This document shows, in pieces, positions 23,913 through 26,435 of a stretch of DNA of 64,000 bases. The DNA lies in contig CM049318.1 in the NCBI GenBank assembly GCA_026874595.1, positions 62,096,250 through 62,160,249 of the forward strand, in the 5' to 3' direction. The stretch is from Sipunculus nudus. Its lineage: Eukaryota > Annelida > Sipuncula > Golfingiida > Sipunculidae. The notes beneath the pieces were generated by a model, which saw only the letters and a program-made list of their open reading frames with translations, did not search any database and was not told the origin of the DNA. Made by a program: the position numbers and the translations under genes. Within the stretch, counting starts at the first letter, position 1; every line of letters begins with the position of its first letter.

Positions 23913-26435
23913 TCACGTGGTCATTTTCACAAGCTGGGGCACTCGGAGGGGGAGGTCGTCCTTGACCTCGCCATTGAATTTGTTTGTGGTGGTCAGCTGC
24001 AGCGGGCGGTCACGTCCACTGGCCACAAGGGCCAGGGGAATGTTATCCTCGGGGGAACCCCCTGGAGACACCACCGGGGATCCCCGGAGAGGGGTGCATA
24101 TCTCAGTAGCCCCAAAAGACGTGCCGTGCGTGATAACTACACTACCAGGTGACGCCAGAATCGGGCTTGGCGAAGATGAGACGTTTCCTTTATTAGGAGC
24201 GACTGGTAATCCGTCCAAACTTCGAGCCTTTTTCCTAGCTAATGAGTCTGCGATTTTGTCAATGCTTTCTGTCCGTTTGGAGGCCCGCCGGTGAAAAGAG
24301 GAACCGTTCAGCGCACCATTTACCGGGGAACGTTGTGGAGGCGACGGGGATCCCCCGTTTGATGAACCATTGAGAGTGAGCGCAGTAGGCGGACTATTAC
24401 CATTGGCTCCATTAAGGGCAGTGCGCGGGTCTGAGCGGCCCTCCGCGCTCTTATTACTGCTGGGGCTACTACTGCGCGACAGTCTCTGCTGTTTCAGCTC
24501 AGTTATTGCTGGAGAGTCGCGCTTACCACTGGGGGGCAACACGGCCGCTTTCACATTATTATTCATGACACAGTTTTTCATATGCATACTATCATGGTGC
24601 CCATTCCCTTTGTTTCCAGTAACTTTACCATGGTCTAGGTTGGTGACATTCCTAGAAGAGACTTCCGAACACTGACTGAGTGCCACAGCGTCCTTCCTCT
24701 TCCCAGGCCTGCCATCGTTAGACCTCTTTTTCTCCACGGTCCCTACACCTGAGGAGCTTTTACTTTCTCCCCTCTTCCCTTGTCGACTGTCACTTCCCCT
24801 CGACTGTTGCTTGGACTGAGTCTTTTCTCCATTGATTGGACCATTCGGTGTCTGCTTAGCGTCAGTGCGCTTAGCTGTTTTAGTGTCCAACATTTTACGA
24901 ATGTCGCCACAGGAGCGCCGAGCAGCACCGGGTATGCTCATATCCAGGGATTTGACAGTCCGTGATATACTATTATCACCCCCGTTAACCCGGTTATTTA
25001 ACGCTTCCGTCGCCGTACTGTCCGTTCGTTTGATTATGCTTACGGGCGTGTTCCCACCCAGAGGCGTTTTAGCGGATTTAGCACTGGTTTCGATGGTCGA
25101 ACGTCGATTCACCGATTCAAGATTCTTTTGAAATCTGGAACTGGCTTCACTGTTCCGTTTAACCTGTCCAGACACCGAACTCTCGCCATTTGCAGTCTTG
25201 TTAGGTTTTGGGACAGCCTCGTTCCCAGTTTTCTTTCCAGCACCATTTGTGAGCATTACACCGTTCGTCGGGCGGGCGGATTTGGGAGTTGGAAGGTCGG
25301 TTGACCGCCGCACGGCACCTGGCATATATTTACTAGTCTGACTACTTGCTGCATTTACAACAACACCAGGTGCATGACCCTTGTTGGCCAACACCTGAGC
25401 CTTGTTGGCCAACACCTGAGCCTTGTTGGTCAACACCTGAGCCTTGTTGACCAAGCCTTTATTTGCCACCTCTGCTGACGGCTTTTCCGTCGCTGTCAAA
25501 CTATTTTCATTGGGGTTCAGCTGCACCTTTTTACAGACTAATTCTTTTGTCTGAATATCACCGCTAACAGATTTGGTATCTGTTTTCTTGTTACCTTTAC
25601 CAGGACCCGGTTTGTCCTGGCCACCTGCACTCTGACTGAACATTGACGGCAGGTCGTTTTGGAGAAGCTTTTTGTCAGTCTTTTTATTCTCAGCTGTACG
25701 TTTAGCTCCCGCAGGTTTACTGACAGAGTCTTGCGAGGTTTTGTCCTGCGATTTTGACTTATTTGTCATGCCACCGGCCTTGCCGACGCTTTTAGATGCG
25801 GCCCCTGTGTTCTTTAGAGAGGGGGACTGCGATCTGCTGGTTGCCATAGCAACCTTGTTCGTCATCAACACAGGTTTGTTCGTCAGCGTGACAGTCTTGT
25901 TGGATGACGTCAGCGTTTTAGTTGTTACTGGTACCGCTTTGGAAACGATAGACTCGGACTTTGTTGTAACAGGCATAGCCTTGCTTGTCGCTATCTCAGG
26001 CTTGTCAATGATAACCGCGGTCTTGCATGTAGATTTGCCATTATCAGTGTCAACAGCATTTCCGTTAGACACACTCTTCTCGCACGGAGCTTTGTCATTT
26101 GTAGGAAAACCCTCGCTTTCCTTCGCTTTGGGCTTTTCTATTGACCGTTCCCGGATGTTCCGCTCAGCCAGCAGCTCACTAATTTTTCTCCTCACTCTTT
26201 TCTTCTTAATTTTTGGGCCCTCTGATTTCTCCTCTGGAGGGCGTTTCCTTTTCGGTCGGCCACGTTTCCTCACGGCCTTGACCTCTGTCTTCACGACCTT
26301 GGCCTCTGTGACCTTGACTTCTTCTGGTGACTTTGCAGGTGACTTTTCCTTTGTCAACTTCTTCATCGGGGTGGCAGATTTCCTTTGCAGATCAGACTTG
26401 TTACACACAAAGTAGAATAGTTTCAGTGGCTCTTT
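23913..26435 (-). CDS. Psc: Psc exon 9: end of RAWUL and the whole disordered C-terminal region
   Basis: Encodes residues 220-1059 in one 2,523-base block after acceptor TTCATTGCAG. It opens [11 protein letters not shown], the last RAWUL strand. Then comes a basic stretch with an AT-hook-like [10 protein letters not shown] (GRP at 278-280) and [10 protein letters not shown] low-complexity tail of S, T, K, N, P and G follows. The heptapeptide NKAQVL(A/T) is repeated three times at 549-569. A second GRP (GRPGKRK, 794-800) lies further on, and SP dipeptides cluster toward the end. The open frame also extends 16 codons upstream into the intron; those are excluded because the splice site and homology start at Lys220. 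It ends with VPQLVKMTT and TGA. Confidence 0.95.
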   Translation of the reverse strand, partial: KEPLKLFYFVCNKSDLQRKSATPMKKLTKEKSPAKSPEEVKVTEAKVVKTEVKAVRKRGRPKRKRPPEEKSEGPKIKKKRVRRKISELLAERNIRERSIEKPKAKESEGFPTNDKAPCEKSVSNGNAVDTDNGKSTCKTAVIIDKPEIATSKAMPVTTKSESIVSKAVPVTTKTLTSSNKTVTLTNKPVLMTNKVAMATSRSQSPSLKNTGAASKSVGKAGGMTNKSKSQDKTSQDSVSKPAGAKRTAENKKTDKKLLQNDLPSMFSQSAGGQDKPGPGKGNKKTDTKSVSGDIQTKELVCKKVQLNPNENSLTATEKPSAEVANKGLVNKAQVLTNKAQVLANKAQVLANKGHAPGVVVNAASSQTSKYMPGAVRRSTDLPTPKSARPTNGVMLTNGAGKKTGNEAVPKPNKTANGESSVSGQVKRNSEASSRFQKNLESVNRRSTIETSAKSAKTPLGGNTPVSIIKRTDSTATEALNNRVNGGDNSISRTVKSLDMSIPGAARRSCGDIRKMLDTKTAKRTDAKQTPNGPINGEKTQSKQQSRGSDSRQGKRGESKSSSGVGTVEKKRSNDGRPGKRKDAVALSQCSEVSSRNVTNLDHGKVTGNKGNGHHDSMHMKNCVMNNNVKAAVLPPSGKRDSPAITELKQQRLSRSSSPSSNKSAEGRSDPRTALNGANGNSPPTALTLNGSSNGGSPSPPQRSPVNGALNGSSFHRRASKRTESIDKIADSLARKKARSLDGLPVAPNKGNVSSSPSPILASPGSVVITHGTSFGATEICTPLRGSPVVSPGGSPEDNIPLALVASGRDRPLQLTTTNKFNGEVKDDLPLRVPQLVKMTT

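Follow-up and report, generated by a model that had tools for sequence, protein, structure and literature searches.

A PCGF2/4 gene of Sipunculus nudus with a long basic tail encoded in its last exon, and a short-tailed paralog nearby

Gene model and class assignment of the window gene

The analysed window was a stretch of 64,000 nucleotides of the Sipunculus nudus genome (GenBank assembly GCA_026874595.1, contig CM049318.1, referred to as C13, positions 62,096,250 to 62,160,249). The gene found there, called gene A, lies on the minus strand and comprises nine coding exons for a product of 1,063 aa. Its features are listed below in window positions, with the evidence for each exon.

44096..44219, minus strand: coding exon 1, two in-frame ATGs (start) and the first half of the RING; donor GT, BMI1 alignment
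39681..39777, minus strand: coding exon 2, second half of the RING; AG/GT, BMI1 alignment
36583..36638, minus strand: coding exon 3; AG/GT, BMI1 alignment
35995..36042, minus strand: coding exon 4 ([10 protein letters not shown]); AG/GT, BMI1 alignment
31002..31113, minus strand: coding exon 5, linker; AG/GT, BMI1 alignment
28096..28147, minus strand: coding exon 6, linker, weakly conserved; AG/GT, matching phases
27408..27506, minus strand: coding exon 7, first part of RAWUL; BMI1 alignment, Pfam RAWUL
26872..26952, minus strand: coding exon 8, second part of RAWUL; BMI1 alignment, Pfam RAWUL
23913..26435, minus strand: coding exon 9, last RAWUL strand (10 residues), entire basic tail (residues 234-1063) and stop
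23509..23514, minus strand: AATAAA polyadenylation-like signal, about 400 bases past the gene A stop

The internal junctions were AG/GT throughout with compatible phases, and the structure is a splice-consistent model. The combination of a BMI1-type head with a long tail in one exon, which had been proposed from the sequence of the window, was confirmed by this model, with the tail lying wholly in the last exon (23913-26435). Exon 9 is 2,523 bases long and is preceded by 223 codons. Its 840 codons are open up to the stop, the chance of which is about 1e-18 given the base composition of the exon, and its other frames contained 40 and 74 stops in the sense direction and 12 to 52 in the antisense direction. 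Exon 9 opens with 10 residues ([10 protein letters not shown]) that still aligned with human BMI1, whose aligned part extends to its residue 227, and the Pfam RAWUL match ended at residue 231 of gene A. Exon 9 thus supplies the end of RAWUL, which points, independently of transcripts, to a junction between exons 8 and 9, and any product with a whole RAWUL would need exon 9 after exon 8.

The head of gene A was compared with protein chains in the PDB, among which 33 distinct sequences were matched. Residues 5-233 aligned with human BMI1 with a score of 296 bits (E 1.7e-87) and the head scored 134 bits with PCGF1, while the PCGF5 and PCGF6 chains, which are shorter or partial in the PDB, ranked behind BMI1. 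No PCGF3 or PCGF2 (MEL18) chain was present among the matched sequences, so BMI1 and MEL18 could not be separated for gene A. The C3HC4 RING (37.5 bits) and RAWUL (60.4 bits) both exceeded the Pfam cut-offs. The identity to human BMI1 was 59% (134/226) and was distributed unevenly, with 80/101 in the RING part, 19/59 in the linker and 35/66 in RAWUL; the similarity stopped 10 residues into exon 9. The predicted closeness of the head to vertebrate BMI1 was upheld by these values and, judged by its deduced protein, gene A is a member of PCGF2/4, the BMI1/MEL18/PSC class. According to passages of PMC10638273, PCGF2/4 and PCGF1/3/5/6 separated at the animal root.

Two retroelement-like fragments were also noticed in the window. 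The first (197-1966, minus strand) gave a weak endonuclease-like match below the cut-off (E 0.0065) and the second (5090-5491, plus strand) a reverse-transcriptase match just below the cut-off (E 1.2e-6).

A short-tailed paralog and the origin of the pair

Searching the genome (1.43 Gb in 153 contigs) revealed a second PCGF2/4 gene, paralog B, on the same contig and strand as gene A, with coding exons from C13:62326178 to 62290785. B lies upstream and A downstream, with about 150 kb between the stop of B and the start codon of A. The nine coding exons of B have the phases 0,1,2,1,1,2,0,0,0, which are those of gene A; exon 6, the least certain one, was the candidate preferred for the strength of its acceptor and for its phase. 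The product of 422 aa aligned with human BMI1 at 312 bits, and the similarity ran beyond RAWUL into KRIKLAH. In the head, identities were 54% between A and B (125/232), 59% between A and human BMI1 and 62% between B and human BMI1 (141/227).

The two genes differ in what follows the head. B has a short tail of the vertebrate type after RAWUL, with 182 residues, a net charge of -10 and 92% of 50-residue windows negative, whereas the tail of A is 830 residues long. Vertebrate BMI1 (PCGF4; 326 aa in PDB 9dby) has the RING and RAWUL head in common with A, and a KRxKxxH stretch after RAWUL in common with B. Its alignment with A, by contrast, ends with RAWUL, and A continues into the basic tail. With such a short-tailed PCGF2/4 gene of matching phases about 150 kb away, this lineage also keeps a vertebrate-like short form. 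One genome thus appears to carry both designs, and the new element is this second gene with a short acidic tail adjoining the long-tailed gene A. Among the matches listed in a search of mainly open-access literature on molluscs, annelids and other lophotrochozoans, no neighbouring PCGF2/4 pair with opposite tails was seen. In the fly, Su(z)2, the neighbour of PSC, is long-tailed, whereas the neighbour of A is short-tailed. The neighbour of vertebrate BMI1 is COMMD3.

With an E of up to 10 allowed, the genome-wide search with the head gave at least 37 matches (the best candidates). Among the seven loci read in addition to A and B, PCGF-like RING exons were located at C1:39968783-39969392, C1:27720331 and C1:27783557-27782935, the second of these with a RAWUL piece at C1:27732240. 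The three C1 genes are tentatively taken to be PCGF1-, PCGF3/5- and PCGF6-like. A RING1-like exon was found at C2:41854286.

A tree was built from six sequences, with human BMI1, A and B set alongside three further PCGF fragments from this genome. It separated the first three from the fragments (99/98), whose rows were 29-36% filled and long-branched. A and B were favoured as sisters, with a p-AU of 0.895 compared with 0.098 and 0.141 for the pairings with human BMI1. The simplest reading is that a tandem duplication within the lineage made A and B. However, the alternatives to A and B as sisters were not rejected with these six sequences, the support being not significant, and tail length may have changed in either direction.

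A tentative alternative on origin, which we hold plausible without preferring it, is that a long tail was ancestral to bilaterian PCGF2/4 and that B and vertebrate BMI1/MEL18 were shortened independently. It would fit the gene structures, since the tail of each gene is confined to one last exon and this exon starts at the same junction in both. In 2012, Beh, Colwell and Francis reportedly surveyed 17 metazoan PSC tails, tied their activity to the absence of extended negative stretches and found disordered, charged tails in many animals, which would also agree with an ancestral tail. However, the tails of A and B have no detectable common sequence, as a tblastn with the A tail gave no match in the 200 kb that contain B, and the tree leans, although not significantly, towards A and B as sisters. 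This alternative concerns the origin of the tail and is compatible with the division of roles favoured below. The original prediction had offered a choice between a tail ancestral and lost in vertebrates and a tail gained separately; it was right about the BMI1 head and the PSC-like tail, but the choice left out a short-tailed paralog.

Composition, charge and repeats of the long tail

Drosophila PSC (1,601 aa) belongs, like A, to the PCGF proteins and has a very long tail, which is disordered and binds DNA in PSC and is predicted in A to be disordered over most of its length and to bind DNA. Passages of PMC10821450 describe the C-terminal region of PSC (PSC-CTR) as a tight binder of DNA and chromatin that plays an important part in compaction and bridging in vitro, and report that truncations of PSC without this region are lethal in embryos. 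The same passages describe part of the PSC tail as prion-like, with Tyr at regular intervals, whereas the tail of A has one Tyr. A is likened to PSC here from published descriptions. According to passages of a paper on Drosophila populations (PMC5599051), which repeats Beh et al. 2012, what matters is how the charged residues are distributed and not the sequence.

The 830 residues of the gene A tail contain 150 K+R and 71 D+E, giving a net charge of +79. This corresponds to +0.095 per residue, which is modest. Among 50-residue windows, 91% were positive; the most negative 30-residue window reached -3 and the strongest net-negative segment -4. The metazoan PSC tails surveyed by Beh, Colwell and Francis are reported to be long, charged, disordered, poorly conserved and free of extended negative stretches, the last feature being taken here without a numeric threshold; the tail of A resembles them, with disorder predicted over most of its length. 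The tail of A is net positive with no extended negative stretch, but not beyond the expectation from shuffles, which equalled it both in negative stretches (P 0.33) and in the 30-residue minimum (P 0.27), so no charge patterning beyond composition was detected. As shuffled charges give equally short negative stretches, the basic character of the tail lies in its composition, and nothing points to selected patterning. Disordered basic PSC tails having reportedly been described across animals in the 2012 survey, the gene A tail as such was to be expected. That survey is cited in PMC10821450, PMC4584315 and PMC6169895.

The tail had been described as rich in Lys, Arg, Ser, Thr, Asn and Pro, with no Trp and almost no Tyr, and the counts bear this out. 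Over 820 residues, K accounted for 12.0, R for 6.0, S for 12.4, T for 8.3, N for 7.2 and P for 7.1%, with A (7.9%), G (7.8%) and V (7.2%) at similar levels and a pI of 10.3. Over 820-830 residues there were no W, one Y and six F, in agreement with the scarcity of order-promoting aromatics expected of a PSC-CTR type tail. The basic character ascribed to the tail was upheld, and its disorder was supported in part. In the charge-hydropathy rule, applied to 51-residue windows starting at residue 226 or later (n=32), 24 windows fell on the disordered side, whereas the remaining eight, within 351-426, 526-601, 676-726 and 951-1051, fell on the ordered side. By composition, the tail is thus predicted to be mostly, not wholly, disordered. 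Neither a Pfam family in exon 9 alone nor a PDB chain matching exon 9 was detected at E up to 1. The stretch [11 protein letters not shown] at about residue 280 resembles an AT-hook core.

Three tandem repeats with a 21-bp unit were found within exon 9.

25375..25454, minus strand: 21-bp tandem repeat, 3.8 copies, 93% matches; Lys at residues 554, 561, 568 and 575
25854..25901, minus strand: weaker 21-bp repeat, 2.3 copies, 74% matches; inside a stretch showing S/T/N-Lys at 7-residue spacing (Lys 375, 382, 389, 396, 403, 410 and 417)
26270..26309, minus strand: third 21-bp repeat, 1.9 copies, 89% matches; near the tail start

The autocorrelation of the tail peaked at 7 and 14 residues, and the 7-residue signal vanished outside two repeat stretches. 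The ordered-side ranges 351-426 and 526-601 overlap the S/T/N-Lys 7-residue runs (Lys 375 to 417 and Lys 554 to 575). The presence of 21-bp tandem repeats in both 7-residue runs indicates that part of the tail arose by repeat expansion.

It could be argued that the tail is a loosely constrained extension, produced by repeat expansion and drift after the duplication and tolerated with no specific chromatin work. The 21-bp units with their periodicity would suit such an origin, as would a charge dispersal the same as in shuffles and the fact that the genome search detected no second copy of the tail (next best E 3.7). However, 840 codons have remained open, positive windows extend along most of the tail and not only over the repeats, and the periodic signal is confined to two stretches. 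The fly protein, moreover, likewise has a long disordered basic tail in the passages of PMC10821450, and we consider drift unlikely as an account of the tail. It is very improbable that exon 9 is only partly coding in the main isoform, with an earlier end or internal splicing giving a shorter protein, as two GTAAG words occur within the exon but a GTRAGT donor is absent from it, the frame is open all through and the last RAWUL strand must come from this exon.

The Pc/CBX locus and proposed roles of the two paralogs

The original prediction implied a division of work, with compaction residing in the PSC tail in flies and in CBX2 in vertebrates. One strong Pc-box match was present in the genome, at C2:53242709 (53.3 bits), among four matches listed. 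The open frame carrying it is RG/GRP-rich, with a net charge of +23 over 242 residues and up to +30 per 100, the start of the 242-residue frame having been chosen by eye. Chromodomain pieces were detected in the DNA of the locus about 15 kb upstream of the Pc box, on the same strand, with a human chromodomain as the probe. These pieces and the Pc-box exon are probably joined as one Pc/CBX gene (C2:53227263-53242813). In the genome-wide Pfam chromodomain search with E up to 0.01, this locus was absent among the 101 matches listed.

A basic disordered segment of CBX2/M33 is tied to compaction in passages of PMC4584315 and PMC10821450, and the Pc/CBX gene found here is also basic; the basic region of CBX2/M33 sits on a chromodomain protein, whereas that of A sits on a PCGF. 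A CBX2-like basic Pc thus seems to coexist with a PSC-like PCGF tail in this animal. As the Pc/CBX gene has its own strongly basic region, a simple trade between PCGF and CBX does not describe this animal, and the implied swap was not borne out. A second Pc-box candidate was noticed at C2:49052020, with 20.4 bits (below the 22.2-bit cut-off) and E 0.95. Its last exon is acidic, with a net charge of -21 over 222 aa, and no convincing chromodomain was found near it in the 3,087 bases examined.

According to passages of the review PMC4584315, compaction by PRC1 is conserved across animals and plants, relies on different subunits and is tied to highly positive domains. Parts of a Genome Research paper (PMC6169895) describe basic disordered domains conserved across species in BMI1 and CBX2, and parts of PMC5105191 report that the ubiquitin-like domain of human BMI1 binds PHC2. 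RING1-like and Pc/CBX genes, candidate PRC1 partners of A, are both present in the genome.

The explanation we favour, with moderate confidence and by analogy with PSC, is that A acts as the compacting PCGF of canonical PRC1 and B as a BMI1-like form without compaction. Within canonical PRC1, the partners of the RING and RAWUL head of A would be RING1 and PHC. The long basic tail of A would act as the PSC C-terminal region does, binding DNA and nucleosomes independently of sequence, and could bridge nucleosomes, leading to chromatin compaction and resistance to remodelling. An expected role in compaction would thus be common to A and Drosophila PSC. B keeps the head with a short acidic tail and may therefore lack compaction activity, much like vertebrate BMI1. 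Four elements of this PSC-like mechanism are inferred, namely membership in PRC1 in vivo, binding to DNA, compaction and a division of labour between the paralogs. A more elaborate and doubtful version would split canonical PRC1 into a form with A and the basic Pc, which compacts, and a form with B, perhaps together with the acidic candidate at C2:49052020, which does not, so that the choice of paralog would switch compaction.

Long- and short-tailed copies of one PRC1 subunit with the same exon layout offer a natural comparison for the contribution of the tail, and gene A is most telling as one member of this contrasting tandem pair. The pair also allows one to ask whether compaction moved between PCGF and CBX or was common to both. 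If, across related animals, orthologs of A keep a basic tail and those of B stay short, the bulk properties of the tail would be the reason for its retention, in support of the view that function can be conserved in disordered regions without conservation of sequence.
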